NCBI GenBank assembly: GCA_002786715.1
Contig: PCTW01000016.1
Location: 1-35,941 of the forward strand
Direction of reading: 5' to 3'
DNA length: 35,941 nucleotides
Source of the DNA: Bdellovibrio sp. CG22_combo_CG10-13_8_21_14_all_39_27
GTDB lineage: Bacteria > Bdellovibrionota > Bacteriovoracia > Bacteriovoracales > Bacteriovoracaceae
The notes under the pieces are model-generated. The model worked only from the letters and a program-made list of their open reading frames with translations, was not told the DNA's origin and did not search any database. The translations under genes and the position numbers were made by a program. Positions 1 through 20,219 of this stretch are shown one piece after another. The number at the start of each line of letters is the position of its first letter. The stretch's first letter is position 1.

Positions 1-430
1 CTTTAGCACTTGGAGTGATTACATGAGTACCTCCTTCAGAACATTGAGAAGAATCAGGAGTTAATGTCGAAGTTGGTGTTACAGTTAATACTGGTGTCGG
101 CCAGTCACAGGTTCCATCGCCTCGAAGTGTTCCGGTAGGACAAGTTACACAATGCTGTCCCTGCTCATACCAAATTTGACCAGTTGAACATGTTACACAC
201 GAGCTGTTAACCCAATGATTGTTTGGATTATTGAGATCACAGGAGAAGCAGCCTTTTAACGGTTCATACCAAAACAGGTTAACCTCGTCGCAAGTAATAC
301 ATCGATCATCAGCTTTCAAATAGTGACTCTTGGGATCATTTAAATCACAATTGATACACTTGGCGCTATCTGGATTCCAAACTCGCTTGTCTGATTCTTT
401 GCAAGATTCATATTTGATTGTTCCTAAAAA
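1..430 (-). repeat. Cysteine-rich CxxC repeats near the visible end of the giant protein
   Basis: Reading toward the left edge, five CxxC pairs occur at regular intervals of 12-15 residues (CINC, CITC, CFSC, CVTC, CVTC), with aromatic WYE/FWYE or HW motifs between them, followed by a TPTST-rich linker. The spacing resembles extracellular cysteine-rich repeats of the TNFR/furin type rather than one zinc ribbon. In an exported protein the cysteines are more likely disulfide-bonded. Whether the array continues beyond the window is unknown. Confidence 0.7.
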
Positions 431-3400
431 GGCGTTTCCACCAATAATTTCATTAGGTGAGCTTTCATAATATGCTTTTATACTTGTTTGAATCGGCGTT
501 TCAATATTATTTTCATCAAAAATGAAGAGACTATTTAGTGCTTGAAGAATAGCATTTTGATCATTTAAATCTACCTCTGTATTCAAACCTTGATTTTCAC
601 TTTGAAGTCTTATTGAAAGCTTTAAATCAGGGCTTTTTAGGCCATACATTTGATACTCACTGTTAAATGTTCCCACATCAAAAGGTCCTGTGTAATTTTC
701 GGTATAAAGACCGGGGATGTTTAATCTGTCGAGATCAAATGCATTTACAGAAAGATTGCTCCCTTCATAATAGTACCCGGAATCTAGCGCTACAAATCGA
801 TTTAGCGTATAGTAAAAAGTAGGTTCATTTCGCGGGAAGATGTAACCTGAGGAGAACTGGTCACTTTCAAAACAAAGATTCCCATTCATTCTAATTAACT
901 TGAATACAACTTTATCTTTGTCCCATTTTACACCGCGATTAATAAAAACGTTGTCTCCACTATAATATAAGTCATCGCCTTCAGTACGACTCACGAGTGT
1001 CCATTTATATTCATCATTAGGAATTGAAAGATCAATTTTATGATAATAAAGCTTGTCTGATAACTGCATGCCAACAACTTGGTAAGCTTGATAGAGTTTC
1101 CTAGGACTTTGATCAGATAAAACATCAGCAGGAACAGCAGGCATCATTTCAATTTTTGGCTTAACATAACCATCATGAGTGACTATAAAACTTGAATTGT
1201 TTAAATAATTATCGGGATTGAAGTCTGGTTTTGTTTTTTCATTTCTGCCTCCCCAGAAGGAGATGTGATGATGATCCTTGTGACTTTGATCATTAATAGC
1301 AACATTTCGAAGAAATCTGCCATCTTTTGAACAAGAAGAATCAACAAAATTGAAAAATGGACTGTTTTCCTCACTAAATAATAAGTAAGCACGTAATTGA
1401 TTTGGAAATTGGTCAATAATTCTTTTAACTAATATAGCTGAAGATTCACTTTTTTCTGGTGGAGCAGGAGAAATCGGAATGGCAGCAGCTGTTCCATTTA
1501 CTTCAATATCAATATCAGTTCCAAAGATATGCCCCTTACGAGTTCCACTTGCCAACAACTGACTGCCATTGATTCCGCCAAAATCTCCAAATTTTACATT
1601 TCCACTATTTATGAGACTGTAAATATTCAATCTATACTTATAGGCGGCCCAATTGTCATAACCAATACCAGCATTAATATCAGTTACATACTTAATACTT
1701 GCGACTGTCGTAGGATTTAAAAGTTGGTCACCCATAGCGATAATTGTTGGAAATTCGTATTTGGTAATAACGGGAATTTCATCCTTGATGTATCGACTTT
1801 CTAGAAATATCTCTTCAATTGGGATGGTAAAGTCTGGTGAAATTACACGAATTGATAATCGATAGAAATCTTGATCAGGATTGTACCAACCAGAAGGAAT
1901 TTTTACATCGAAATCGTTTCCAAAAAGTCTTTTTTCTAACGGGAGTATTGCTAAAAGTTGATTACTTGTAGACAGAAGTGCAAGTTCGTACTTGTATGAA
2001 TTATAAAGTTCTTGGGTCATTCCATTTATCTTAATTGTTAATGGGTTTTGGAACTGGCCTTGAATAGTCGTACTTTCATATATCTTGCCAACTCCGGGAT
2101 ACAATGAAGGATAAGTTCCTAATGAAATACCGACGAGTTCTGTCTTGGTCCCTCTGTTAAAAATCTTCGCTTGCCCTAAGGAATTCCGAATTGGAGGTTT
2201 CGCTGTTGTTCCTGAACCCGATCCCGCAGCAAATGCTCGGCTTATAAAATAATCAACGGGGTTTACCGACTGGTTTTTAACTGTTACAAAATCTGTTCCA
2301 AAAAATTGTGAATACACTACAAAGATACGGTCTGAATGATCTGGACTCTCTATTAAAATGTTGGCAGGAGTTTCAACGAGATTGCCTGTTGTATAGTCAC
2401 CTCCTACTTGATTCATATTAAATGAAATTTCTCCTGTGTTAGGGTTTTTGATGATTCCAAGTAAAAAGGAATCTGGACTTGATGAAATAATATTCATTGG
2501 GTAAGCAACATTGAAGACATCTTGGTTAAATGAGAATCTTGTCGCAACAAGCGAGATACCGCTTAAGTCAGGTGAAAAATTCGCATCCATTGCCGAGTCT
2601 GGATATTGTACAAATGAAGTTGAATTCTCATGAAGTAGTGTTTCTCCAAGACCTCTAATCATTTGCCAATTATCAAAACCATTTTCAAATTCGTAATCTG
2701 AATGAGCAACTAATGAATTTAGAGGACTTGATACAATATCTAGAACAGTTGGGGTATCAGTTGCTTCAACTGAGTTAACACCGATGAAATTGTTTTCATC
2801 AGAAATAAAAATGATGCGCCCTTTAGGAATATTTAAGATTGGTGTGGAGTTAAAGCTAAAAGTTCTATTCGAAAAATTGGTATGGATGGCATGAATTTTA
2901 GTAAGAGAGATCGGACTTCCACTGTTGTCAGTTAAGTTTACGTCAACTCTTCCTGAACCAGAAATAAATTCCCATTCTTTTCTAAATTCTCGGCCCTCAA
3001 AATCTTTAAAGGAAAGAGTTACGTAGTTTGTTCCTTCTTCTAAAACAACAGGAGCTAGAACTCGTCCTTGCTCAATGAGAACAGTTTCTACGGGGATCGT
3101 TAAATCATTAACAATGAGAGAGAAGAAATCAGGAAGTCCATTTTGTGCGATGAGAACTTCACTATTTGCTATAAGAAATTCAAACTCATTCAATAGTGGA
3201 TTAAATGTACTCTCGTCAATGCCTGTAAGTACTACTTCGGCCAATGATTTTCCTACGCCCGTCCCTTGATCAATTAAAGAAAAATTGCTCGAAGAGTTTG
3301 AAGCGAGTCCAGTTGATGAAGTCACTTCAAGAGAAATAATGGCTTCAATTGAGGATTCAAACTGAATTTCAATATTCTCTGTACTATAAATAATACCATT

Positions 3401-6400
3401 TACAATCCAACTATAAGTTTGCGCCAATCCAAAATCATCTACAAACTGTGGACTACAAGAGAGACGAAGGTTTGCCGATTCAAAGCATGAAATTGATAAG
3501 GCAGGAGCTGGGGGAGGAATTATTGAATAGCTATTTGTACTTATGCCTTGATCATTGAAATTATCAGTTACGATTAGAGAGATATTTGCAATTGATGTGC
3601 CTGAAGAAAACTTATGAGTGAACTCATTTCCTGTATATAAGCTTGCTCCGTCGATTTGCCAATTAAGGGAAGTAATTTCACCATCATAATCAAGAGAACC
3701 CGAGTTCGCGCAAGAAATTTCTAAAGGTTTAGTTGTTTGACATTCAAAATTTGCTACAGGGAGCTGATTTTGAATAACTTCCACATTTTGAGATGCAGAA
3801 GCTGTAGCTCCTTCGTTGTCAGTAGCAACTAGGACTATTTGATGAAGACCACCGGAGGAAAAGACCTTTGACACAATATCATTTTCATCAATAGCGACAA
3901 TTGTAGTCTCGTCATCAAATTGATATTCAATTTTTACGATCGAGCCATCTGAATCGAAGCTACCCACGGCCTGACATTGAACAGTGTTAATAGAGTTTGA
4001 ACTGCATGATAGAAACACTATTGGTGCTCGATTGATTTTTTCTATTGCATTCACAAGTATTTCAGTCTGCGTACTTGCACCAAGTTGGTCAGTGACAATC
4101 GCACGGACGATATAAGTTCCACCTTGTTGATAAGAATGATTAACGAAATTATCAAAATAACTTGTTCCGTCGCCCATTTGAATTTCTGTTGAAACAATCA
4201 ACCCATCTGGATCATAGGAAAAAGAAGAATCACACGTGACTTGAAGAAAATTTGAGGAACAGTAAATATTGGCCACAGGTGGAATATTGCCTGTTCCATT
4301 TCCTTCAGTTGTTATTTGTGAAGATGCGGTGGCCTGCATACCGCTAAAGGTAATAGCACTTACCGTGACATCATAAGTACCAGCACTTTGATAATTATGT
4401 CCGATAGCATCAAAAATTTGCCATTCATTGTTAGCAACTGGGTATGAGTCAATGTTGCCATCACCCCAATTAATTTCTACTCGATCGAGTTCTTTGTCTT
4501 TGTTCGCTACAAAAAAATCGCACTCACCGTATAAACCAAAAGCATTACATTGATCAATCTTGCTAATAATGGCAGGGCCACTATTAGTGATCAGGATTTG
4601 TTGGACTTGTGAGGCACGAACCCCCATGGAGTCTGTGATAGTCAAGCGCGCCAGATAAAGGCCCGCTTCATAAAAGTGAATAGACTCCTCACCATAGCCC
4701 ACTTGTCCATCTCCGTACTGCCAAAAGTATGACAAAATTTCTCCATTGGGGCTTGCTGAATATTGAGAGAGAAGTCTTACGTGTTTAATCGTCTCATCTT
4801 GCAAAACCATAAAATTAGCGACTGGATTAAGGGCCTCTGGTGTCGAGTTCGTGACCGTGATCTCACGAGTAAGAGAGCTTGTGAGGTTTTGAGCATTTTC
4901 AAGAGTTAAAGTAACTGAATAGACCCCAGCATTTTGATAATTGTGGCTTGCAAAGTGGCTTGAAAGAGTTTCTTCGGGAGTTTGATCACCCCAATTTATT
5001 TTCATACTGGTTGTCGAATTTAAGAGATCAAAACTGTAGAGCGCATTTAAAAAGACCTGATTGATGTTTGATTGGGCAATGGTAAATTGGGGAACTGGAG
5101 CTTGTTGGGTTTCATCCATAATAACAGAGATCGTCTCTTCTGAAGTTTGGTTTTGTTCATCGGTGACAATTTGTTTAATGTCATAGCGAAGTCCGCCTTC
5201 TGCTTGAAAAGAAGCTTCTGAATAAGCGTAGATCGCTGAAGAAAGTGAGACTTGATTGTTTACGAGATAGCTCACAGAAGTAATATTTGAACTTCCTGCG
5301 ATCGCTTGGTTCTTTAATCTGACTAATCCAGTACTCGAGTCGGCTTCAATCTGAAACCACGCGATTGGTGGCGTTTTAATCTCAGGAGCAGTCACGGTAA
5401 TTTCAACCATTGCCTCAGAGACAAGATTTTCCCCATCATAAATTTGAATTTTTGCGGGGAAAACGCCCGGCTCATTATAGGTATAGCTAACAGTGCTTCC
5501 TGCGTTTAGAGCAAACACGTTAGGAGCAAATTGATAATCTCTTTTTATAATGGAGACATCATCGCTTGATGCTGATGAATCAAACGTAACCGTTAAAGGA
5601 GCCTCTCCTGAAATTTTATCCGCTGATAAAAGAGCAATCGGAGGCGCATTGACTGAAATACTCATCGTTTTTGAATCACTCAATCCAAAAGAATCGGCGA
5701 CAGTGAAAATAAAATCAAAATTTCCAGGCTGACTAATCACGATATCGAAAATACCTGTTGTGTTGGTTTGATTAATTCCTAAAGTAGTACTTGAGAGAGA
5801 AAAAGAGATTATATTGTTTTCAGCATCAGTAGAAGTTGATCCATCAAACTTAAAGCTCGATCCAGGGTTAGCTCGAACCTGATCAACTAACAAGCTTGCG
5901 ATCGGCGCGGTGTTGGGAGTATTCACTTCAATAGAGACAGATTTTGAACTTGATAAATTCTCTTGATCGAAAACTTCGACGGATGCTGAGAAATTTCCAC
6001 TTTGCTGATACAGGTGAGAAACCACGGCATCAGTTGTAGTAAGGCTCTGACCATCGCCGAAGAGGTAAATTCGGTTAACAATTTCTTTATCATCGCTCGA
6101 AGCTGATGAGTCAAAAGTAACTAAAAGTGGCGCATCTCCTAAAATTGGAGTGGCCGACAAGCTTGCGATTGGTGCTTGATTAACAGGAGGAGCAGAGACA
6201 CTCACAGAAGCGCTTATTGAACTCTCTAGGCCTTCTTGGTCTTTAACCACTACCTGAGGACTAAAAACATTTACGGATGAATAGACAACGTTTAAAATGG
6301 GTTCTGTGGTTGAAATGATCTCGCCGTTTCCAACGATGAAGGTATAAAGGACGATTCCTTTGTCATCGCTTGAGCCAGATGCATCGAGTGTCACTTGCAA

Positions 6401-6949
6401 TGGTGCAATGCCTGAAATTGGATTAAGAACTAACTTCGCGACAGGTGCTTGATTGACTGGCACTGTATCCGTTTGCGCAATGATGCGAACTTTTTCTCGA
6501 TCTGGTTTGGATTTTTTATTATTACTGTCGATGACGAAAACTTTGGGATGAAATTCTTTGATGTTCTTTTTGTGCTTATGTTTTTTAGAAAGAGTTTCTT
6601 TAATAAAAGAGTATTCGTATGTGACGATGGGATTACTCGATTCAAATAACGGTGATCCATCATCATAATCAAAAACATATTTAACAATAGTGGCACCTTT
6701 ATGGGCACGAGACTTTGAAGCATCAAGCGTTGCTGTACAAGGAGATTGGCAAGGTTTTGAATCGACTCTTAAATGCGCCTGTGGTGGGACAAGGTGCTTG
6801 TTACGTTGGTTGTGGTGGTCATCTTTGCGATCTTCTTTCTCTTGATGAGATTTATCGCTGTCTTCTTTATCCTTGTCTTTGGCAAAAGAAAAAGAGGAGC
6901 TACTGACAAGAAAGAGAGTGATGATAAGAAGTTTCAGCTTACGTTCCAC
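1..6949 (-). CDS. Giant secreted PKD-repeat protein with embedded MepA-like (M74/LAS) metallopeptidase domain; C-terminus beyond window
   Basis: The frame is open from a GTG at 6947-6949 to the left edge (2316 residues seen, no stop). The start is supported by an AAGGA six bases upstream and by a signal peptide: Arg/Lys near the start, a hydrophobic core, then a Ser-rich SFSFA-like cleavage region at about residue 24. A charged Lys/Asp/His-rich linker follows. About 13 PKD/Ig-like repeats span residues ~57-1215, with typical SSDDK turns and WGDG-type motifs. After ~550 unassigned residues comes a metallopeptidase-like domain (~1770-1905), then another unassigned region and a cysteine-rich stretch (~2180-2316). 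The protein is probably exported and acts at or beyond the outer membrane; PKD repeats in such proteins usually act as spacers or in adhesion. A peptidoglycan-cutting role is inferred from the metallopeptidase motifs. Total length, C-terminus and any outer-membrane sorting signal are not visible. It appears monocistronic; I found no convincing promoter in 6950-7196. Confidence 0.88.
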   Translation of the reverse strand, partial: MERKLKLLIITLFLVSSSSFSFAKDKDKEDSDKSHQEKEDRKDDHHNQRNKHLVPPQAHLRVDSKPCQSPCTATLDASKSRAHKGATIVKYVFDYDDGSPLFESSNPIVTYEYSFIKETLSKKHKHKKNIKEFHPKVFVIDSNNKKSKPDREKVRIIAQTDTVPVNQAPVAKLVLNPISGIAPLQVTLDASGSSDDKGIVLYTFIVGNGEIISTTEPILNVVYSSVNVFSPQVVVKDQEGLESSISASVSVSAPPVNQAPIASLSATPILGDAPLLVTFDSSASSDDKEIVNRIYLFGDGQSLTTTDAVVSHLYQQSGNFSASVEVFDQENLSSSKSVSIEVNTPNTAPIASLLVDQVRANPGSSFKFDGSTSTDAENNIISFSLSSTTLGINQTNTTGIFDIVISQPGNFDFIFTVADSFGLSDSKTMSISVNAPPIALLSADKISGEAPLTVTFDSSASSDDVSIIKRDYQFAPNVFALNAGSTVSYTYNEPGVFPAKIQIYDGENLVSEAMVEITVTAPEIKTPPIAWFQIEADSSTGLVRLKNQAIAGSSNITSVSYLVNNQVSLSSAIYAYSEASFQAEGGLRYDIKQIVTDEQNQTSEETISVIMDETQQAPVPQFTIAQSNINQVFLNALYSFDLLNSTTSMKINWGDQTPEETLSSHFASHNYQNAGVYSVTLTLENAQNLTSSLTREITVTNSTPEALNPVANFMVLQDETIKHVRLLSQYSASPNGEILSYFWQYGDGQVGYGEESIHFYEAGLYLARLTITDSMGVRASQVQQILITNSGPAIISKIDQCNAFGLYGECDFFVANKDKELDRVEINWGDGNIDSYPVANNEWQIFDAIGHNYQSAGTYDVTVSAITFSGMQATASSQITTEGNGTGNIPPVANIYCSSNFLQVTCDSSFSYDPDGLIVSTEIQMGDGTSYFDNFVNHSYQQGGTYIVRAIVTDQLGASTQTEILVNAIEKINRAPIVFLSCSSNSINTVQCQAVGSFDSDGSIVKIEYQFDDETTIVAIDENDIVSKVFSSGGLHQIVLVATDNEGATASASQNVEVIQNQLPVANFECQTTKPLEISCANSGSLDYDGEITSLNWQIDGASLYTGNEFTHKFSSGTSIANISLIVTDNFNDQGISTNSYSIIPPPAPALSISCFESANLRLSCSPQFVDDFGLAQTYSWIVNGIIYSTENIEIQFESSIEAIISLEVTSSTGLASNSSSNFSLIDQGTGVGKSLAEVVLTGIDESTFNPLLNEFEFLIANSEVLIAQNGLPDFFSLIVNDLTIPVETVLIEQGRVLAPVVLEEGTNYVTLSFKDFEGREFRKEWEFISGSGRVDVNLTDNSGSPISLTKIHAIHTNFSNRTFSFNSTPILNIPKGRIIFISDENNFIGVNSVEATDTPTVLDIVSSPLNSLVAHSDYEFENGFDNWQMIRGLGETLLHENSTSFVQYPDSAMDANFSPDLSGISLVATRFSFNQDVFNVAYPMNIISSSPDSFLLGIIKNPNTGEISFNMNQVGGDYTTGNLVETPANILIESPDHSDRIFVVYSQFFGTDFVTVKNQSVNPVDYFISRAFAAGSGSGTTAKPPIRNSLGQAKIFNRGTKTELVGISLGTYPSLYPGVGKIYESTTIQGQFQNPLTIKINGMTQELYNSYKYELALLSTSNQLLAILPLEKRLFGNDFDVKIPSGWYNPDQDFYRLSIRVISPDFTIPIEEIFLESRYIKDEIPVITKYEFPTIIAMGDQLLNPTTVASIKYVTDINAGIGYDNWAAYKYRLNIYSLINSGNVKFGDFGGINGSQLLASGTRKGHIFGTDIDIEVNGTAAAIPISPAPPEKSESSAILVKRIIDQFPNQLRAYLLFSEENSPFFNFVDSSCSKDGRFLRNVAINDQSHKDHHHISFWGGRNEKTKPDFNPDNYLNNSSFIVTHDGYVKPKIEMMPAVPADVLSDQSPRKLYQAYQVVGMQLSDKLYYHKIDLSIPNDEYKWTLVSRTEGDDLYYSGDNVFINRGVKWDKDKVVFKLIRMNGNLCFESDQFSSGYIFPRNEPTFYYTLNRFVALDSGYYYEGSNLSVNAFDLDRLNIPGLYTENYTGPFDVGTFNSEYQMYGLKSPDLKLSIRLQSENQGLNTEVDLNDQNAILQALNSLFIFDENNIETPIQTSIKAYYESSPNEIIGGNAFLGTIKYESCKESDKRVWNPDSAKCINCDLNDPKSHYLKADDRCITCDEVNLFWYEPLKGCFSCDLNNPNNHWVNSSCVTCSTGQIWYEQGQHCVTCPTGTLRGDGTCDWPTPVLTVTPTSTLTPDSSQCSEGGTHVITPSAK
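1245..1640 (-). other. Embedded MepA-like (peptidase M74, LAS superfamily) zinc peptidase domain
   Basis: In the giant protein's frame the segment carries the ordered motifs of penicillin-insensitive murein endopeptidase MepA. There is a GDxxG strand, a Gly-Gly, then GHIFGTDIDI (His codon 1529-1531, Asp codon 1508-1510), matching MepA's HxxGxDxDI in which His113 and Asp120 bind zinc. About 76 residues later comes HKDHHHISF (codons ending at 1262), matching MepA's HDDHFHV, whose His206, His209 and His211 form the rest of the active site. The spacing inside both motifs is identical to MepA. The preceding residues (GRFLRNV) also match the DRDWLRKV type of sequence before the MepA histidines. All expected zinc and catalytic residues (1807, 1814, 1890, 1893, 1895 in this protein) are present, so the domain is predicted active on peptidoglycan cross-links. 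That substrate is inferred from family similarity. Confidence 0.8.
3300..6790 (-). repeat. Array of about 13 PKD/Ig-like repeats inside the giant protein
   Basis: Translated in the giant gene's frame, this stretch repeats a unit of about 85-95 residues. Each opens with a hydrophobic strand of the form xPxAxL or xPVAxF, often followed by a SxSSDDK-like turn and then a strand ending in a WGDG- or FGDG-like motif (WGDG is encoded at 4462-4473). Units near the N-terminus are the closest to one another and share the SSDDK turn. Later units diverge and several gain a cysteine pair about 8-9 residues apart in the first strands, suggesting disulfide stabilisation outside the cytoplasm. Repeat boundaries are by eye. 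Confidence 0.75.
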
Positions 6950-7907: not shown

Positions 7908-9086
7908 CTATTCTGCTTGTTTAAGAACTACTTTTGACTTTATTTCAGAGCATTCTGAGCACCAACTCTCTTTTGCTTTAAGATAAGTTGTACGCCATTG
8001 ATGCCCATGCGAACATTCCCACAGCAATAGAGAATAGGTACTCTTGGCGACCTCCGCTAAGCACTGACCACCTTTCTCGCGTGCTAAATTATGAGCATCA
8101 GAGATTGTAATGTTTTGAAAAAGACATTCGTTACACCACTTTTGATTGTTTATAATGTCTTTTGCACATCGCTTGAATTTGTGTCCATTTTTACAACGCC
8201 AAAGTAATGATTTATCACTTGAGATATACTCTACGCTTAAGCATTCTCCCCCTTTCGATTTGGCCAGCTCGTGCATTTCTTCAATAGTCTTTTTTATTTT
8301 TGAAATATGGCATTTGGGACACCAAGATTTCTTACTTATAATACTCGAAGGTATAGCTTTCCATATATGATCGTTCTTGCACTTAAATCTAATATAAGAA
8401 CTGCCTTTATTGTACTCGTCAATTGTCGAGAGACATTCTCCATCTTTCGCTTGTGCTGCCTTTTGAGCTTTCTCCAATGTTTCTAATCTCTGCTTTAATG
8501 CCCTAACTTCAATGGCACATTTTGGACACCAATTTCCTTGTCTGATTGAACTGGCAACCGCACTCCATTGATGTTTCTTACTACATTCCCAATCGTATTT
8601 TTTATCATTGCCTCTGTACGTGCTTGAAAGACATTTTCCGTTGCGAGACTTTGCCAAGTCTTTTAAATCATCAATGGTTTGATTTTTGCCAACACAATAA
8701 GGACACCAACATCCTCCATGCACAATTGTTGAAGGTTGTGCTTCCCATTGATGACCCAATTGACACTCCCATGAAAGTTTGGAGTGATGATTTACAAATT
8801 GCTCCGTTAAGCATTTACCCCCTCTGGAGATTGCTATAGCCTGCATTCGCTCAATATTATCAAAACGTCCAAGACGCACACATTCAGGACACCAAGTTCC
8901 ATCATAGATCACATGTGAGGCACGAGCTTGCCATTCATGACCCTTGCTGCATCGCCAATGGAGTTTGTTTTTATAAGCGGTACAGGAATTCAATTTGGAG
9001 AGACATTCCCCTCCATGATCTCGGGCCGTTTGAATAGCATTATTAAAAATGATCTTTTTCACTCTCAAAGTATCGACATTTACCAA
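7908..9086 (-). CDS. Protein with six tandem zinc-ribbon/treble-clef repeats (DUF4379-like)
   Basis: This 392-residue protein is almost entirely six copies of a ~55-60-residue module: a helix ending in GGECLS or a variant, a strand with WxC, then GHxW, a helix with SxI, and finally WCPxC. Each unit offers Cys/His ligands for one zinc ion (CxxGHxW ... WCPxC), typical of the probable zinc-ribbon family PF14311/DUF4379. These are often found in accessory or phage-linked proteins next to nuclease domains. No nuclease or other catalytic domain is visible here. Nucleic-acid binding is the likely role, by inference. The start is uncertain: the TTG at 9084-9086 is the first possible start after an in-frame TGA and has no clear ribosome binding site. 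The GTG eight codons later is an alternative and would keep all repeats intact. Confidence 0.72.
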   Translation of the reverse strand: MVNVDTLRVKKIIFNNAIQTARDHGGECLSKLNSCTAYKNKLHWRCSKGHEWQARASHVIYDGTWCPECVRLGRFDNIERMQAIAISRGGKCLTEQFVNHHSKLSWECQLGHQWEAQPSTIVHGGCWCPYCVGKNQTIDDLKDLAKSRNGKCLSSTYRGNDKKYDWECSKKHQWSAVASSIRQGNWCPKCAIEVRALKQRLETLEKAQKAAQAKDGECLSTIDEYNKGSSYIRFKCKNDHIWKAIPSSIISKKSWCPKCHISKIKKTIEEMHELAKSKGGECLSVEYISSDKSLLWRCKNGHKFKRCAKDIINNQKWCNECLFQNITISDAHNLAREKGGQCLAEVAKSTYSLLLWECSHGHQWRTTYLKAKESWCSECSEIKSKVVLKQAE

Positions 9087-11872: not shown

Positions 11873-13570
11873 ATGATGACTTTAATAATTTCTCTTTTTC
11901 TGCATTTTTCTTTTGCAACTGAAATACCCTTTACTATTTACCACACAAACGATCTTCATTCACATTTTGATGGTGTAAAGTATCCAAATCCAGTTGAGGG
12001 GAAAAATGTCTCTATAATCAAAGGTGGGTTTTCTCGAATCGCCACAGTGGTACAGGAATTAAAAAAGGAGAAGGCTAGGCAAAATGAAATAATTTTTGGA
12101 GTTGATGCAGGGGATTTTTTCGCGGGAACAATTTTTTCTGCAATTGGTCCTTCTTCTCAAATTGAAGATTTTCCAGAGTTTGAATTTTTGAATTCTATTA
12201 ATATAGATCTTATCACTTTGGGAAATCACGAATTTGATCCTGGAAATTCAGGATTAGAAACGATGCTGAGTAAGATTAAGAAGATCAATCCCCAAGCTTC
12301 TCTCGTTGCAACAAATCTCTTTATCAAAAATCCTCAATCTACACTAAATGCTTTTGTTGGCGATGAAGCCTTAATTAAAAGCCATGTTGTTAAGACCTAC
12401 AAAAGCGGAGAGACTCAATTAAAAGTGGGCTTTTTAGGAATATTGGGACCTGATGGTTGTTTAGTTAGTCGGTCGACACGTGAAGATGTGAAGTTTATCG
12501 GATTCGATGATGAAGGTTCTCGTGTCAGATGGAAAGAGCTCCTTCTGCTTTTGCGTAAAAAAGTACATATGCTCAAAAAAGAGCAGGGAGTTGATATTGT
12601 TATTCTTTCTATGCACGGAGGCGGCATGGAGAGTGACCATATTGCCAAGGAAGTTGCCGGTATTAATGTCATTATTGCTGGACATACCCATCAAGAAGAA
12701 TTTCGAACAATCAATAATGTCATCATTTCCCAAACTGGATCCTATGGTGAATCACTTGGTCTGCTAAATCTAAAGTTCGATACTGTTTTAAAGCGAGTGC
12801 TTTTGCAAAATGAATCTGAAAAACGTCTCATCTCTATTGATCAAAATATTCCTAGGGACTCTAATTGGGAGAAGAGAATTGGTGATTATCGACGATTTGC
12901 CTATGAACTCATGGGACATGGAGCAGATCAAGCGCTTAAACCTGTTTTTAAGCCAATTAAAGATTATATTCGAGCAAGAGAGTTGTTCAATCCCATGGGA
13001 GAGTTAGTAACTCGCGCCCTTCGAGATCAAATCAATTTAGGCTTAAGTGATAAAAAGATAGATGCTTATTTTACTTCAATGGGTTTGGTTCGCACTTCAT
13101 TTTTAAAAGGTGTTGATTACAATGAATCTGATATTTTTGAAGCAGTTTCAATTGGATTTGATGAATTAAAGCGTCCAGGAACGGATATCGTTAGCTTTTA
13201 TTTGAGCACAGAAGAATTTGTTCGCTTAATTAACTTTCTTGAACTTTATTCTCATTTTTCAAACTCTTTTGCACCAGCAATTTCTCCCAATATTGATTAT
13301 AAAGTTCGTTGGTGGGGGATTCCGTTTCTGAATAGAATTCACAACATTACTGTTAACGGTACTGATATCTCCGACAGGAAAGGCCTTATTCACGTCGCAA
13401 CTAATCGCTTTGTGTATCAGAATATTTCGACAGTTGAGAGCTTGAGCTATGGTCTGGTGAAAATGGCACCAAAGGATGAAAATGGTGCATCACTTGTTAA
13501 TCCACCAACTCATCAAAAAGAGTATCTTCATTTGATTCAGTATTTAAGGGCCAACTCAGGGAAGCTTTAA
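11873..13570 (+). CDS. Secreted 5'-nucleotidase / cyclic phosphodiesterase family protein (UshA-like)
   Basis: The 565-residue protein begins with a short signal peptide (LIISLFLHFSFA). The calcineurin-like metallophosphatase domain has all its metal-binding motifs: HTNDLHSH (~residues 24-31), DAGD (~78-81), LGNHEFD (~116-122), SMHGGG and AGHTH (~245-275). The C-terminal half matches the 5'-nucleotidase substrate-binding domain, with an N/GELVTRAL-type segment and a late aromatic patch. UshA-type enzymes dephosphorylate nucleotides in the periplasm so that nucleosides can be imported, a sensible role for a bacterium consuming the contents of another cell. ATG codons at 11873 and 11876 are both possible starts; neither has a strong ribosome site. 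The last 15 bases overlap the end of the convergent CoA-transferase gene. Confidence 0.88.
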   Translation: MMTLIISLFLHFSFATEIPFTIYHTNDLHSHFDGVKYPNPVEGKNVSIIKGGFSRIATVVQELKKEKARQNEIIFGVDAGDFFAGTIFSAIGPSSQIEDFPEFEFLNSINIDLITLGNHEFDPGNSGLETMLSKIKKINPQASLVATNLFIKNPQSTLNAFVGDEALIKSHVVKTYKSGETQLKVGFLGILGPDGCLVSRSTREDVKFIGFDDEGSRVRWKELLLLLRKKVHMLKKEQGVDIVILSMHGGGMESDHIAKEVAGINVIIAGHTHQEEFRTINNVIISQTGSYGESLGLLNLKFDTVLKRVLLQNESEKRLISIDQNIPRDSNWEKRIGDYRRFAYELMGHGADQALKPVFKPIKDYIRARELFNPMGELVTRALRDQINLGLSDKKIDAYFTSMGLVRTSFLKGVDYNESDIFEAVSIGFDELKRPGTDIVSFYLSTEEFVRLINFLELYSHFSNSFAPAISPNIDYKVRWWGIPFLNRIHNITVNGTDISDRKGLIHVATNRFVYQNISTVESLSYGLVKMAPKDENGASLVNPPTHQKEYLHLIQYLRANSGKL

Positions 13571-14164
13571 TTGCTCTTTAGTCACACCTTCAGCAAGGTC
13601 GATGATTTCAAATGCTTTTCCATTCGGGCGAAAGAGTCCCATTTCTGTTACAACTAAATCGACTACTTTGTAACCCGTCAGTGGCAACGTGCATTTCTTA
13701 ACTAATTTACTTTCACCATCTTTACTAAAATGAGTCATCATGATGATAACTTGTTTGGCGCCATTAACGAGATCCATGGCCCCACCCATTCCTGTAATTT
13801 TTTTGCCTGGTATCGCCCAGTTTGCAAGACTTTGCTCGCAATCAACTTCCATACCTCCTAAAACGCAATAGTCGATATGTCCGCCTCTGATCATCCCGAA
13901 GCTCATAGATGAATCAAAGAAACTCGCGCCTTTATTAATGGAAATGGTTTCTTTGCCGGCATTAATTAAGGTAGGAGAGACAGTTTCTTTAGTCGGTCGT
14001 CCTTTAACTCCAAGCACGCCATTTTCAGAATGGATCATAAAATCACTTTGAGGGGGAATTCTTTCGGCAACTGCAGTTGGCATGCCAATTCCGAGATTAA
14101 TGCTTGAGCCAGGCTTAAAAAGTGAAATCACTTTGTCGGCCATTTGTTCTTTTGTCCAACTCAT
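13556..14164 (-). CDS. scoB: 3-oxoacid CoA-transferase, subunit B
   Basis: This 202-residue protein has the family-I CoA-transferase beta-subunit layout: GxxxNLGIGMPT near residue 22, then HSENGVLGV at about 45-53, whose Glu47 is the catalytic carboxylate that forms the acyl-CoA thioester. A later GGMEVD segment also matches the family. With its partner it would move CoA from succinyl-CoA or acetyl-CoA to a 3-oxo acid such as acetoacetate. Its ATG overlaps the stop of subunit A (ATGA) and is preceded by AGAGGA, so the two are translationally coupled. It is the last gene of the thrS-led operon and overlaps the convergent 5'-nucleotidase gene by 15 bases. The natural acceptor may be a longer oxo acid from the upstream aminotransferases. 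Confidence 0.88.
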   Translation of the reverse strand: MSWTKEQMADKVISLFKPGSSINLGIGMPTAVAERIPPQSDFMIHSENGVLGVKGRPTKETVSPTLINAGKETISINKGASFFDSSMSFGMIRGGHIDYCVLGGMEVDCEQSLANWAIPGKKITGMGGAMDLVNGAKQVIIMMTHFSKDGESKLVKKCTLPLTGYKVVDLVVTEMGLFRPNGKAFEIIDLAEGVTKEQLKLP

Positions 14165-14859
14165 GATTGATCCTCTAACAATAAAAATTCAATATCATTT
14201 TTATAATCTTTTCCTTGGAATATTCTTTGGACAAATAAGCCTGGAAGATGAATGTCCTCAGGTGCGATCTCTCCAAGCTCAACGAGTTCTTCGACTTCGA
14301 CGATTGTGGTTTTTGCTGCCATCGCCATGAGAGGTGAAAAGTTTCTAGCGGTTTCCTTAAACCAAAGATTTCCGTATGGATCACCCTTTTGAGCTTTAAT
14401 AATAGCGAAGTCTGCGTGAAGGGCCGTTTCTAATATGCAAGGTCGATCAAAATTTTTGACGTCTTTACCTTCGGCGACAGGAGTCGCGAAACCTGTTGGC
14501 GTATAAAAAGCACGAATTCCCATTCCCGCAGCGCGAATTCTTTCAGCAAATGTTCCCTGAGGAACAAGTTCGACTTCGATTGTTTTCGCCATCATCTGCT
14601 TCTCAAGATCAGGATTTCCGCCGACGTAGCTACAAAAAGCTTTCTTGATTTTATTTTGGACTAAGATTTTGACCAAGCCACGTCCCGAATTTCCAATATT
14701 ATTAGAAATGACTGTGAGATCTTTGACGTCCATTTGTGTTAAAGCATCAATGCAATTTTCAGCAATACCACAAAGGCCAAAGCCACCACTCATTAATGTT
14801 GAGCCTGATTTAAAATCAAAGAGAGCTGATTGAGCATCTTTAAAAACTTTAGAACTCAT
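14161..14859 (-). CDS. scoA: 3-oxoacid CoA-transferase, subunit A
   Basis: A 232-residue alpha subunit of a family-I CoA-transferase. Its N-terminal signature GSTLMSGGFGLCGIAE fits the subunit-A pattern (LMxGGFGxxG), although the usual Pro after the last Gly of the motif is Ile. GNPDLEKQM and the GxRAFYTPTGFAT segment are also typical. The start is placed at the ATG at 14857-14859 because GGAG lies five bases upstream; a GTG two codons earlier overlaps the previous gene's stop and lacks a ribosome site. It works as a heteromer with the following scoB gene, and its position behind two aminotransferase genes suggests activation of an oxo acid produced by transamination. Confidence 0.88.
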   Translation of the reverse strand: MSSKVFKDAQSALFDFKSGSTLMSGGFGLCGIAENCIDALTQMDVKDLTVISNNIGNSGRGLVKILVQNKIKKAFCSYVGGNPDLEKQMMAKTIEVELVPQGTFAERIRAAGMGIRAFYTPTGFATPVAEGKDVKNFDRPCILETALHADFAIIKAQKGDPYGNLWFKETARNFSPLMAMAAKTTIVEVEELVELGEIAPEDIHLPGLFVQRIFQGKDYKNDIEFLLLEDQS

Positions 14860-14861
14860 AA

Positions 14862-16049
14862 TCACTCCAGTAGTTTGTGAATCTTAGCGAAACCTTCAGA
14901 TATGAGCTCTGGTGGCATGTTAATCGCTGGTGAAATAATGAGGCGATTATTTTGGTTTATCAGATAGATTCCGACATTGATGAGATCTTGAATAAAGTAT
15001 GTAGAATTCTTTAAATCTATCGCAGCTAACATTCCAACTTGTCGAGTTGTTTCAACTTTTGGATGTCTTGCCAGTTTTTCTAATTCTTGAAGCATGAGCG
15101 TTTCTATTTTTTGGTAATTTTCAATAAAGGGTTTTGATTCTATAAAATCGAGCACGGCCTCAAGAGCGGCCAATCCCATGGGATGGGCATAATTGGTAAG
15201 CCCGCAATTCAGAAGAATATCATTAAAGTAAGTGGCTATTTTTTCAGAAGTCCAAACGGCACCAAAGGGTATCACTCCACCAGAAATGGCCTTGGCCATA
15301 CAAACAAAGTCGGGTTTTAAAAAAGGAAAATGATGAAAACCAAATGGCTTACCTGTTCTTCCAAAGCCGCAAATGACTTCATCAAGGATGAGAGAAATAT
15401 TGAACTCGTTACAAATTGCTTGAATTCCTCTCCACCAGTCTTCGGTTGCTTTTATGATTCCATTGCTACCTGTAACTGTTTCTAGGCAAATGGCGGCAAT
15501 CTTATTGGGACCGATCATTTCAATTATTTTTCGAGTAAATTCTAGTTTAGGATCTTCGTCTGGCTCAGGTATACGAATGGTTCCTTCTTCCAACTTATAG
15601 GAAATATCATTGCGCCAATCTCCAGAAACTGAAACGGCACCAAGGCTTGCTCCGTGATAGGACTTTTTTCTACTCAAAACTATTTTTCGTCCTGAGTATT
15701 GGCGTACCATTTTGAGGGCATTTTCAATAGCCTCAGAACCTGAAACTGTATAAAAGATCTTTCCTTCTTCTAAGTTGATGAGGTCGAGTAAGCGTTGGCT
15801 CGCATCCATCTTTATTCCAAATTTCGCTTTTGGTGAAGCGACAGGAAGTGTATCAAGTTGTTGCTTAATTCGATCGATAATGAATTGAGGTTTTAAACCA
15901 AATGAGCATTGATAGCTTATAGAGCTGAAGTCCAAAACTTCTTGACCATCTGTTTTGACAAAATGAAAGGGTTTGTTGTGAGAAACTTCAAACGAGTGAA
16001 CACCCTTTTGTTTTGTCCAAGTATAATAATAAGGCATGATTTGGCTCAT
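14862..16049 (-). CDS. Class-III PLP-dependent aminotransferase
   Basis: The 395-residue fold-type-I aminotransferase is complete in its key residues: SGSEAIENALK (~103-113) for cofactor phosphate binding, YHGAS (~131-135), LDEVICGFGRTG (~222-233) with the pyridine-nitrogen Asp223, and MAKAISGG (~251-258) with Schiff-base Lys253. Class-III enzymes act on amines away from the alpha carbon (omega-amino acids, beta-amino acids, ornithine, GABA) or on acetylornithine-type substrates. The exact substrate cannot be read from the sequence. It is shorter than most class-III enzymes (~420-450) and has a compact N-terminus. It follows the C45 gene by one base and runs into scoA, so its oxo-acid product may be the CoA-transferase substrate, as in YodT-YodRS of Bacillus. 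Confidence 0.85.
   Translation of the reverse strand: MSQIMPYYYTWTKQKGVHSFEVSHNKPFHFVKTDGQEVLDFSSISYQCSFGLKPQFIIDRIKQQLDTLPVASPKAKFGIKMDASQRLLDLINLEEGKIFYTVSGSEAIENALKMVRQYSGRKIVLSRKKSYHGASLGAVSVSGDWRNDISYKLEEGTIRIPEPDEDPKLEFTRKIIEMIGPNKIAAICLETVTGSNGIIKATEDWWRGIQAICNEFNISLILDEVICGFGRTGKPFGFHHFPFLKPDFVCMAKAISGGVIPFGAVWTSEKIATYFNDILLNCGLTNYAHPMGLAALEAVLDFIESKPFIENYQKIETLMLQELEKLARHPKVETTRQVGMLAAIDLKNSTYFIQDLINVGIYLINQNNRLIISPAINMPPELISEGFAKIHKLLE
14865..14868 (-). promoter_or_regulatory. Shine-Dalgarno GGAG that decides the scoA start
   Basis: On the minus strand GGAG sits at the very end of the preceding aminotransferase gene, five bases before the ATG at 14859. This supports coupled translation and argues against the GTG at 14865. 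Confidence 0.6.
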
Positions 16050-16050
16050 T

Positions 16051-17142
16051 TTAGAGAACCTTTATAAAGTGCGAACCATCTCGCTTAAATTTGTAGCTAA
16101 TATAATTATTGTCGTGAATTGGGCACCCTCTCCAAAGATAAACGTCACCATCAGTGATGTCATAGACACCGCCGCCACAAGTTGAAGAAGGATCTTGTGT
16201 TCCACTTTCAAAGTGAGAGCAAAGTGATTTTGGCTCACCTTCGTGATCTTGTAGGAGTTTTATCATTGAATGAAAATCAGTCACAGTTCCTGATTTTTTA
16301 GTTAAAAGATCATATCGTTCCAATGTCGTTGAGCTTAGGCTTTTCCTATCTTCAATTTTTTGAATCGATTCTCCAATGCAGTGATTTGTGTGAAAAATTG
16401 AACCGTTTTGATGAGTTTGTATTTTACCTACTTGCTCAGAAATATGAGGAGTGACCTCCCAATGTTCACCTTCATTGTCATCAGATAAAAGATAATTATG
16501 ACCGCTTGTGACAGGGGCTTCAAGCAGCATCGATCTCATCGAGGGGAGATTCTGTTGTGTAAGTAGTTTTCTAATGAGAACTGGCCAAATGAGCCCAGCT
16601 TTTGCATTCTTGGTATTGATATTATTTACGCCGGCCAAACAACCATATGTATTCATCCCCATGAGTGCACTACAACCAACAAGAGAAAGAAAGAGTTGCT
16701 CTGGTTTACCTCCCTGACTTTTGACGTGGATAACGCTTAAAAAACGCTTAGCGCTTCTGTGCATATCCCAAGTCTGACCAGAGATCACTTTTTTGTTATG
16801 ACTTGTATGAATGGTTGAACAACCTTCTTCAGGAAGTTCAATATCTCTAAAATCAGTATAATTATTTAAGATAACCAAGTCAGGTATGGACAGGTTCGCT
16901 GCTTCAGCAATGCCTTCAAGTTCTTCACAGAGATGAGTGGAGAAACGCTTTGTGACATACCATTGTTCCATTGCGAGCGGTATGAGGTTCTTACTTAACG
17001 ACGGGTTTTTCGCTAACATTAACTGTGTTCGTATCTCTACCAACTCATTGATTGCCGCTTTATGCATTTCTCCTTGAAGGAGACCATGTTGTCTTGGAGT
17101 TTGATTGGCCTCAAGAGTAATTAAAGGGAACTGACAATCCAT
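16051..17142 (-). CDS. C45-family Ntn hydrolase / acyltransferase (AAT-like)
   Basis: This 363-residue protein resembles peptidase family C45 (acyl-CoA:6-aminopenicillanic acid acyltransferase and related amide hydrolases). The hallmark is EEGCST: Cys108 would become the N-terminal nucleophile after self-cleavage between Gly107 and Cys108, as at Gly102-Cys103 of the fungal enzyme. NNYTDF just before the cleavage site, GQTWDMH after it, GVNNINT and FHTNH are also typical. No signal peptide is seen, so it should be cytoplasmic. Family members hydrolyse or transfer acyl groups on amides. In this operon removal or transfer of an acyl group on an amino-acid intermediate is a reasonable inference. 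The ATG overlaps the preceding stop (TAATG), with AAGGAA upstream. Confidence 0.8.
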   Translation of the reverse strand: MDCQFPLITLEANQTPRQHGLLQGEMHKAAINELVEIRTQLMLAKNPSLSKNLIPLAMEQWYVTKRFSTHLCEELEGIAEAANLSIPDLVILNNYTDFRDIELPEEGCSTIHTSHNKKVISGQTWDMHRSAKRFLSVIHVKSQGGKPEQLFLSLVGCSALMGMNTYGCLAGVNNINTKNAKAGLIWPVLIRKLLTQQNLPSMRSMLLEAPVTSGHNYLLSDDNEGEHWEVTPHISEQVGKIQTHQNGSIFHTNHCIGESIQKIEDRKSLSSTTLERYDLLTKKSGTVTDFHSMIKLLQDHEGEPKSLCSHFESGTQDPSSTCGGGVYDITDGDVYLWRGCPIHDNNYISYKFKRDGSHFIKVL

Positions 17143-20100
17143 TACGCTATTCCTTCTGTTTCGATGAAGTCCCTCATGGCATCATATGATGGATCGATTA
17201 AATAATAATCCTCATAATGTGAAAATAGAGATGCGAGGTGTGAGGGGAGATCGGCTTTGAAGCGTCCCTTTCCTTGGAAGACTTCCCAATTATTCAAAGA
17301 ATAAGGTGATAACATTGATTTTAACTTAGCTTCAAATTTCTCAATAGTTTGAGCAAAAGCCTTTTGATCTTTATGAATACTATTTACTTGGCGTAAGTAT
17401 GAAGCGAATGAAAACTCATCACCATCCCAAGTACTAATGAGCATTAAAGGCTTGCTGATAAATTTTTCGCTTTTGGCGTAAACAATTCCCGCTTGTCCAC
17501 CTAAGAAGATCATTCCCATATCAGGCGAGATATCAGCTTGGTTGGCCAAACAGTAATCTTGAGCAGAGTAGCTATATCGTGAAGATGAAGTCTCATTATA
17601 AACTAAATTGGTCCCCAATTTGGTTGAAAGTTCCTTTAGTTGCTTTAGGAATTCACGCGGAACTCTTTGCATTGTTTGTTGTTGGATGGGTTCTAGCCAA
17701 ATGCCGAGATATTTTTCTTTTTTGAGATGATTTTCAACTTCAGTTAAAACTTCTTTCCAATTATTTTCATTTGGATTTTCCAAGTGATCTACAGGAAAAA
17801 AAGCATGTTGTTTAGAAGATAAAGATCTTGAAAGAAATGATCCATTTCCAAAATAATGACCTTTGAAAGTCAGCATTCTATAAGTTTGTTTACTTGAAAC
17901 ATACCAAAGTGATTTCGCAATCTTGTCGACACATTCTGATTGTCCTGAGCAGACATAGCCGTGGCGAAGTTCAGGAGTTATAGAACTAAAAAGTCCAGTG
18001 ACTTGCTCCATAAAACGCGCGCTTACAAAATTAGAAAGGCAAATCTTATTAACCATGTAAGGGAGTTGCTCATTGATATATTGTGAATCAAGTGAACGCT
18101 CAGTAATGGGTGAGGTTTTGGCCTGTGATAAGTTCAGCTTTGTCTTATTCCATTTGAGTGGAGAGGTATAATAAAAAACGTCTCTATAGTCTTCGTTGTC
18201 AGGATAATCCTCATGAATATAAAAGAGCTCATGCCCACCTAGTGATAAATTGATTGACAACATTGGTGCTGCTAGACGATCTCTATTGCGTCCATGAATT
18301 CTTTTAAGTCCCCGTGATTGGGCCATAAGAGAAGTCGCGTACTTGATTTGTCTTCCTAGACCATGGCCTTGTCCTTCTTTATTAACTGTTACATCAAGCA
18401 TGTAAAGCACACCTTCATCGTTAAAATAGGGATCTCTTTTAACACCTCTTTCTGTAGGGTTGATTTTAAGTGGTGAAGCAAAGGACATAGCTTCAATTTC
18501 ATCGTTTTTAATGAGGGCCAAGCAGATTGATGACGGATTAAGAGCTGCATCTTCGAATTTCTCAATCTTTGTCTGTCTCGCAGGCTCATAGTTGAGTTGT
18601 TGCATACGAACTATTTTTTCACGAAACTTTTCAAAGTTGTTTTTGTCGATAAAAACCAGCTCTGATGAACTACTTTCTCCAAAAAGTTTGCTCATTTGCT
18701 TCATCAGTTCTGCTTCAGGGAGTATTTCTCCTTGGAGATCAGAGAGCTTTGATTTCAAAATGAGCTCTTGCCAAGCATAGACGTTGTCACTGCTTCTTTC
18801 GGCCGTTTCTACGTGTGTAGGAAGTTTCTCGGAAGCATTATTGAAAAGTTCATTGGTAATATGATCGAGTTCGGCAAATAAGAATTCGAGGTCCTGTTGG
18901 TTATAGGCGGTATTTAAGCGGAAGCGTAGAGTTTTATCACCGGCAGGATAATAGAGCATTCCATGTTGAAATCTCTTATCTACATATTGATTGAGTTTAG
19001 TTTTATCTAGTACGTCAAAAGCAAAACAGAGGCCCATTCCCCTTGGTCTAGCTAAATGTTTTGAATGTTTCAGCACCAGTTGTTGGAGAAGTTTATCCCA
19101 GTGCTTTTCGAGGGATAATATTTTTTGTTGTGCTTGATCAAGTGCAATTGCATGAATGTATCCGCGAGCTAGAGAAGCCACTTGATATTCTTCTTGTCTT
19201 TCAAAAGCATCTTTGTAGAGATGATTAGGGGAGAGGACAAGACCTATTTGGGCCTTTTTTGCACATGTCACAAAGTCAGGCAATAAAGGGGAACCATCAA
19301 CATTCTTTAATTGAAATTGTGTATGCCAAAAAAATTCACGACCTAAATGAAAACCAGTTTGAACCTCATCAAAAATAACGGGCACACCAAATGTTTTGGC
19401 CATCAAAAGAAGGGCATTTTGAAAACGGTTTGAACTATAACAATCGCCACCTTCACATTGCATTGGTTCAACAATAATGGCAAAAAGTGTTTTGCTCAGA
19501 AGGGCTTCTCGCACTTTTTCGAGCGATTTTACCTCGAGACTTAACATTGGATCATTGTGATAACTTTCAGGAATGCTGAAGTCTGAACGAGTAGAATCGC
19601 GCCAGAGCTCACGCCATCCTTGAGGATTTGAAAGCATGATTTGCGAGTCCGGAAGTTCTGGGTAAGGAATATAAGTGATTTCATGTCCCGGCCACTCAAA
19701 TGGCTCTCTTTTACTTTTGTTCCAGGTGGCGGCCAATGTGACCATCATTCGTCCATGAAAGCTGCCTTCGAAGGCCAATACTTTGTTTGCCGATTTATGC
19801 TTGCGTCTTTTATAACAATAGCCTAATGCCGTTTCATTGGCCTCTGCTCCTGAATTGACGAAAGTCATTTCAACATGATTCCAATTTGTTTTTCTTTTAA
19901 CAAATGTTTCTAAACCATCGGTTAAAGCCTTTGTCGCTTCACCTTGAGTATTGTTGAGCCACGATTCAAGATAATGAGCGGTTCCCATAAATGCCGAAGG
20001 TGAAAAACCCAAGCCTAATGTGGCAATCTGTGAAGCTGCATCCATCATATATTTGGTTTCGCCCTTGGCTCCTTTAAGAGCTAAGTAGGGACCTTGAGAT

Positions 20101-20219
20101 TCACGTAAGAGCGTCAGGTACTCTTTTTTTTCGGGAGGAATGAGATCTCCCGTATAATATTTTTGAAGAGCTTCCTTTGAGGCCATTTGATCTTGAGAAT
20201 CGATAATAGGTAATTTCAT
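17142..20219 (-). CDS. Three-domain fusion: class-III aminotransferase - GNAT acetyltransferase - degenerate aminotransferase
   Basis: One open frame of 1025 residues encodes three domains. Residues ~1-460 are an intact class-III aminotransferase: SGAEANETAL (123-132), FEGSFHGR (150-157), IVEPMQ, IFDEVQTG (282-289) and CAKKAQIG (319-326) with the Schiff-base Lys, closest in motif style to lysine-6- and GABA-aminotransferases. Residues ~490-695 are a GNAT acetyltransferase with acetyl-CoA loop GQGHGLG (~617-623). Residues ~715-1025 again follow the aminotransferase order (CSGQSECVDKIAK, FKGHYFG, LEPIQ, YNETSSSR, LGGQAGIV). However, the cofactor Asp is Asn (YNET) and the Schiff-base Lys is missing (KK becomes GG), so this half should not bind PLP normally. 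It may be a structural partner, since these enzymes work as dimers. It lies nine bases after ddl. Confidence 0.85.
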   Translation of the reverse strand: MKLPIIDSQDQMASKEALQKYYTGDLIPPEKKEYLTLLRESQGPYLALKGAKGETKYMMDAASQIATLGLGFSPSAFMGTAHYLESWLNNTQGEATKALTDGLETFVKRKTNWNHVEMTFVNSGAEANETALGYCYKRRKHKSANKVLAFEGSFHGRMMVTLAATWNKSKREPFEWPGHEITYIPYPELPDSQIMLSNPQGWRELWRDSTRSDFSIPESYHNDPMLSLEVKSLEKVREALLSKTLFAIIVEPMQCEGGDCYSSNRFQNALLLMAKTFGVPVIFDEVQTGFHLGREFFWHTQFQLKNVDGSPLLPDFVTCAKKAQIGLVLSPNHLYKDAFERQEEYQVASLARGYIHAIALDQAQQKILSLEKHWDKLLQQLVLKHSKHLARPRGMGLCFAFDVLDKTKLNQYVDKRFQHGMLYYPAGDKTLRFRLNTAYNQQDLEFLFAELDHITNELFNNASEKLPTHVETAERSSDNVYAWQELILKSKLSDLQGEILPEAELMKQMSKLFGESSSSELVFIDKNNFEKFREKIVRMQQLNYEPARQTKIEKFEDAALNPSSICLALIKNDEIEAMSFASPLKINPTERGVKRDPYFNDEGVLYMLDVTVNKEGQGHGLGRQIKYATSLMAQSRGLKRIHGRNRDRLAAPMLSINLSLGGHELFYIHEDYPDNEDYRDVFYYTSPLKWNKTKLNLSQAKTSPITERSLDSQYINEQLPYMVNKICLSNFVSARFMEQVTGLFSSITPELRHGYVCSGQSECVDKIAKSLWYVSSKQTYRMLTFKGHYFGNGSFLSRSLSSKQHAFFPVDHLENPNENNWKEVLTEVENHLKKEKYLGIWLEPIQQQTMQRVPREFLKQLKELSTKLGTNLVYNETSSSRYSYSAQDYCLANQADISPDMGMIFLGGQAGIVYAKSEKFISKPLMLISTWDGDEFSFASYLRQVNSIHKDQKAFAQTIEKFEAKLKSMLSPYSLNNWEVFQGKGRFKADLPSHLASLFSHYEDYYLIDPSYDAMRDFIETEGIA

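Follow-up and report, generated by a model that had tools for sequence, protein, structure and literature searches.

Giant proteins in which a relative of the M74 (MepA) murein endopeptidases is joined, in most cases, to an arm of PKD repeats recur in the phylum Bdellovibrionota, where we count 20 members in 19 genomes, and the five metal-site and catalytic positions of M74 are conserved throughout. The protein from which the family was traced is encoded at one end of the window, that is, the whole stretch of DNA analysed, which makes up the opening 35,941 bases of a contig 199,371 bases long from Bdellovibrio sp. CG22_combo_CG10-13_8_21_14_all_39_27. We consider it probable that the family consists of secreted modular giants, in which a PKD arm is combined with a zinc peptidase of an M74-like subfamily that would cleave peptidoglycan cross-links, most likely in the walls of prey or neighbouring cells. 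The window organism's family within the phylum is presumably that of Halobacteriovorax, and its habit is probably predatory. To our knowledge, the predator wall enzymes studied so far are mostly small secreted Bdellovibrio proteins; giant secreted proteins with a MepA-like cutter, in the lineage to which the marine predator Halobacteriovorax belongs, would suggest a different way of delivering the same chemistry. The giants also add an M74 subfamily that current profile libraries miss, and provide a defined gene set for deletion and expression.

The original prediction of a secreted protein of more than 2300 residues holds: the frame is real, begins with a GTG codon that has AAGGA about 8 bases upstream, and opens with a probable signal peptide. 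Its layout is as follows.

2..6949, minus strand: giant secreted protein gene, 2,316 aa, C-terminus truncated by the contig start
6881..6949, minus strand: residues 1-23 (MERKLKLLIITLFLVSSSSFSFA), a probable Sec signal peptide by inspection of the sequence
3257..6787, minus strand: 13 PKD repeats, residues 55-1231 (repeat HMM, 13 matches)
1757..3229, minus strand: linker, residues 1241-1731, partly common to the G034 and G069 relatives (blastp)
1250..1756, minus strand: M74/MepA-like domain, residues 1732-1900 (family-profile match)
1508..1531, minus strand: HxxGxDxD block with His1807 and Asp1814, aligned with a MepA metal-site block
1265..1282, minus strand: HKDHHH block with His1890, His1893 and His1895, aligned with a MepA metal-site block
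404..1249, minus strand: region C-terminal to the M74-like domain, residues 1901-2182, about 280 residues
2..403, minus strand: Cys-rich tail, residues 2183-2316, read from the translation and cut by the contig end

The repeat count agrees with the 13 or so PKD units first proposed, and PKD scores above the Pfam cut-off (PKD_4, PF18911, E=1e-80, 266 bits in 11 stretches; PF00801, 160 bits). Pfam scans gave no match to the linker of about 500 residues or to residues 1901-2182, and a search of the assembly for a continuation of the tail found none, the first 130 bases being present once. Two other parts of the window, both on the minus strand, may be recorded here. At 7908-9086 a frame of 392 residues is built from a recurring Cys-rich unit, some 60 residues long, with CxxC/H motifs (KGGECLS...WxCxxGHxW...WCPxC). 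At 13556-20219 adjoining genes resemble, on reading only, two CoA-transferase subunits, aminotransferases and a C45-like acyltransferase, one of the aminotransferases being part of a protein of 1,025 residues whose middle resembles an acetyltransferase.

The two-block M74 signature is present with the spacing proposed, and all five residues lie exactly where they had been placed: His1807 (codon 1529-1531), Asp1814 (1508-1510), His1890 (1280-1282), His1893 (1271-1273) and His1895 (1265-1267). The pattern HxxGxDxD[IVL] plus HxxHxH at the observed spacing arose in none of 20,000 shuffles of the window protein. His1807, Asp1814 and His1895 reproduce the zinc-ligand pattern of M74 (HxxxxxxD and HxH), and HKDHHH at residues 1890-1895 its active-site block HxxHxH. 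Some details had to be corrected, since the whole domain occupies 1250-1756 rather than 1245-1640, and the strand preceding the blocks, given earlier as GDxxGG, reads GDFGGING. We take the MepA equivalents to be His113 and Asp120 (for His1807 and Asp1814) and His206, His209 and His211 (for His1890, His1893 and His1895), the MepA numbering and roles being those reportedly given in the structure paper of Marcyjaniak and others. The motif match alone is not proof, because neither Pfam nor NCBIfam recognises the domain, and the window protein had no M74 match in either library. Compared with the PDB, the single window domain matched nothing meaningful, and its single-sequence AlphaFold model had a pLDDT of 32. 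As the window protein alone gave no M74 match, the homology test was run through its relatives.

A set of 59 genomes yielded one relative (G034), wider searches two more (G069, G098), and further rounds ten and then six. The domains of these relatives are only 16-31% identical to the window domain, yet HxxGxxxD and HxxHxH occur in all 20 members. A profile from which the window protein was left out scores the window domain at 58.5 bits over residues 1761-1898, which makes it a true member of the family. When a profile of 13 members was compared with all PDB chains, E. coli MepA came out on top (1tzp, also 1u10; E=4e-5, against 0.17 for the next-best match), with both blocks aligned to the MepA metal-site blocks. 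An hhalign comparison of the family with 31 M74 sequences of the phylum gave P=6e-18 (global, 173 columns). Because such P-values come from single comparisons without calibration, controls were run: reversed alignments gave P of 0.14-0.87 and 40 column shuffles scored at most 19, compared with 104. Searched with the family profile, many genomes of the phylum also yielded ordinary M74 genes, including the two encoded by the window genome itself (E=5e-10 and 2e-10).

The original description of the domain as MepA-type is partly supported: homology to M74/MepA stands, but the giants form a sister subfamily rather than part of M74 proper. The curated Pfam M74 cut-off of 25 bits was not reached by the window protein or its domain, which had no match, or by any relative (best 16.7 bits), and weak matches at the motif were seen in three relatives (G115, with 0.006, G002 and G069). 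On the tree, giants and M74 proteins are two separate groups with 100/100 support and long branches within the giants, none of which fall among the M74 sequences. On these profile and tree comparisons, the domain of the giants is an M74-like subfamily, homologous to M74 and with the same predicted metal-site residues, outside PF03411 as now delimited. Since it is also present in 19 related proteins from 18 further genomes, it seems to represent a branch of a known enzyme family that has so far gone undescribed.

Most members come from the window's own family in the phylum and three from another family, and the presence of the giant genes is patchy within the phylum; searches of viral contigs and plasmids found no relative. 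One candidate locus (L007) was rejected as a relative, its 14-residue match being due to chance. The same architecture, for which a search had been proposed, does occur in other genomes, with PKD repeats in the same frame as the domain in 15 of the 20 members; the G034 relative matches the window giant in frame length and order. Several of the remaining members run into a contig end or could be shorter versions. The picture of a peptidase head on a long stalk is half right: the PKD arm does precede the domain, but the domain is internal, with at least 416 residues C-terminal to it in the window giant and 330-770 in most relatives. In some giants this C-terminal part contains hexapeptide-like repeats, which match a left-handed helix model weakly.

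Three copies are broken or out of frame. In G002 (L072:8336-14797) an in-frame TAA splits the gene into 670 and 1,483 codons. In G061 (L066:8276-12086) two transposase-like frames (649 and 379 aa) lie between the PKD start and the M74-like end, an IS-like insertion that puts the PKD piece beyond it, and in G064 the N-terminus of the giant is in another frame. The gene is thus not essential for predation everywhere. A further PKD giant in pieces, 44% identical to that of G094, occurs in G093, a genome of the same genus as G002 (L162:4416-9832); it has no detectable M74-like domain, and two partner genes, of the kind described next, follow it.

At nine of the 20 loci (G226, G227 twice, G061, G064, G094, G007, G100 and G002) the giant is followed by a same-strand gene for a secreted protein, placed directly after it or after a short hexapeptide-repeat gene (partner genes at L065:11825-12922, L069:7688-8806, L071:3439-4650, L072:6230-8397, L064:5468-6427 and L066:5097-5984). 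These partner proteins of 296-404 residues have in common a module of about 45 residues at the N-terminus. In leave-one-out profile searches every one of them was recovered, three only weakly (E 0.002-0.02), and the partner genes scanned with Pfam gave no confident match. Copies distant from the giants, tandem or often at contig ends, were found in G002 (two) and G094 (five), and G096 has four, with no giant found in its genome. Adjacent and orphan copies are common for the immunity genes of polymorphic toxin systems, and by this analogy the arrangement is suggestive, though only suggestive, of a partner gene that may protect the cell from its own giant. The downstream side of the window giant lies off the contig. 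At its sister locus in G034 a different gene is found downstream, and neither that gene nor the partner module had a match in the window genome.

Other neighbours of the giants were also noted. At three loci of the second family a gene for a secreted hexapeptide-repeat protein of 174-175 residues, left-handed helix-like, lies directly after the giant (L068:4486-5007, L067:1227-1751, L135:6503-7024), and repeats of this kind are also present within several giants, at the C-terminus, and in three neighbouring genes of the G060 member. Ankyrin repeats were considered for the lipoprotein-like gene after the G022 giant (L070:9272-11158) and rejected, Pfam finding none; the gene product resembles designed ankyrin proteins marginally (E=0.009), a point of interest because Bd3460, a protector in Bdellovibrio, is an ankyrin protein.

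In the mechanism we favour, the signal peptide would send the giant out through Sec, and the PKD arm, which could span about 50 nm if each domain measures some 4 nm, would together with the terminal parts position or anchor the enzyme outside the cell. His1807, Asp1814 and His1895 would be the zinc ligands, and His1890 and His1893 would lie in the active site. The bonds cleaved would be D-Ala-mDAP or related ones, and the wall most likely attacked that of prey or of neighbouring bacteria. An assignment to another LAS family such as M15/VanY, which would predict a carboxypeptidase in place of an endopeptidase, is very improbable. VanY-type enzymes (PF02557) have the LAS group and HxxGxxxD in common with the giants, and the hhalign match to 30 of their sequences was weak, with P=0.018 for a short stretch in local mode and 0.84 in global mode, and amounts to no significant profile similarity; M74 is matched more strongly by some fifteen orders of magnitude, the HxxHxH block is of M74 type, and the WH block of VanY is absent. 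We also think it distinctly unlikely that the domain, as an M74 relative, has lost catalysis and serves only to bind peptidoglycan or metal. Hedgehog provides a precedent for such a loss in the wider LAS group, and the long branch that separates the giants from M74 and the missed Pfam cut-off are in its favour, but all 20 proteins, which otherwise share little, retain the five metal and catalytic positions.

The main rival to cleavage of prey walls keeps the enzyme and changes its target, so that the giant would remodel the wall of its own cell, for example by opening it for the giant itself or for a surface fibre, with the PKD repeats as a structural fibre. The signal peptide and fibre-like repeats are compatible with this, as are the two ordinary M74 genes of the window genome, which indicate that M74 chemistry is used there anyway. 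Nevertheless, an enzyme of 2,300 residues would be an odd housekeeping tool, the patchy presence and broken copies speak against housekeeping, and the extra copies of the partner gene suggest a need for protection, and we judge own-wall remodelling to be unlikely. Use of the giants on the walls of prey or rivals is the likelier reading from their genes, because of their size, their patchy presence and the possible protector.

Comparison with described systems places the giants close to known chemistry in an unfamiliar setting. They share with M74/MepA (PF03411; PDB 1tzp, 1u10) the GD-S-NGG strand, HxxGxxxD and HxxHxH, in equal order and spacing range, and differ in scoring below the Pfam cut-off, in forming their own tree group and in the GGDDW-like motif that precedes the first block in most members. 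The contrast originally drawn with MepA as a stand-alone enzyme of about 270 residues describes its normal form, but M74 also occurs in multidomain proteins, listed with LysM, PGB1 and NALAA domains and without PKD (PMC6403190). These proteins, like the M74 frames of 500-860 residues in the phylum, which group with M74 on the tree and not with the giants, join M74 chemistry to other parts as the giants do, although neither a PKD arm nor giant size is listed for the former (PMC6403190). The view that no described family has this architecture stands: searches of the openly accessible literature, main texts only, found no paper joining M74 with PKD, and the main text of a 2024 comparison of predator wall enzymes mentions neither. 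A further parallel is in Bdellovibrio, where an endopeptidase with a co-transcribed protector is proven, namely the DD-endopeptidases Bd3459 and Bd0816 with Bd3460 (PMC4686830). There, as is predicted for nine loci of the giants, the gene of a predator wall endopeptidase lies beside that of a secreted protein; Bd3459 and Bd0816, however, are small serine enzymes of unrelated fold (PMC4686830), and Bd3460 is an ankyrin protein of proven function, whereas the neighbour of the giants is a candidate partner known from its genes. Tentatively, and against our present expectation, the giants could be predator-specific wall-cutting effectors, each a PKD arm with an M74-like cutter, that travel with a cognate secreted self-protection gene whose extra copies lie scattered in the genome; the Halobacteriovorax lineage would then have its own version of the Bd3459 and Bd3460 pair of Bdellovibrio.
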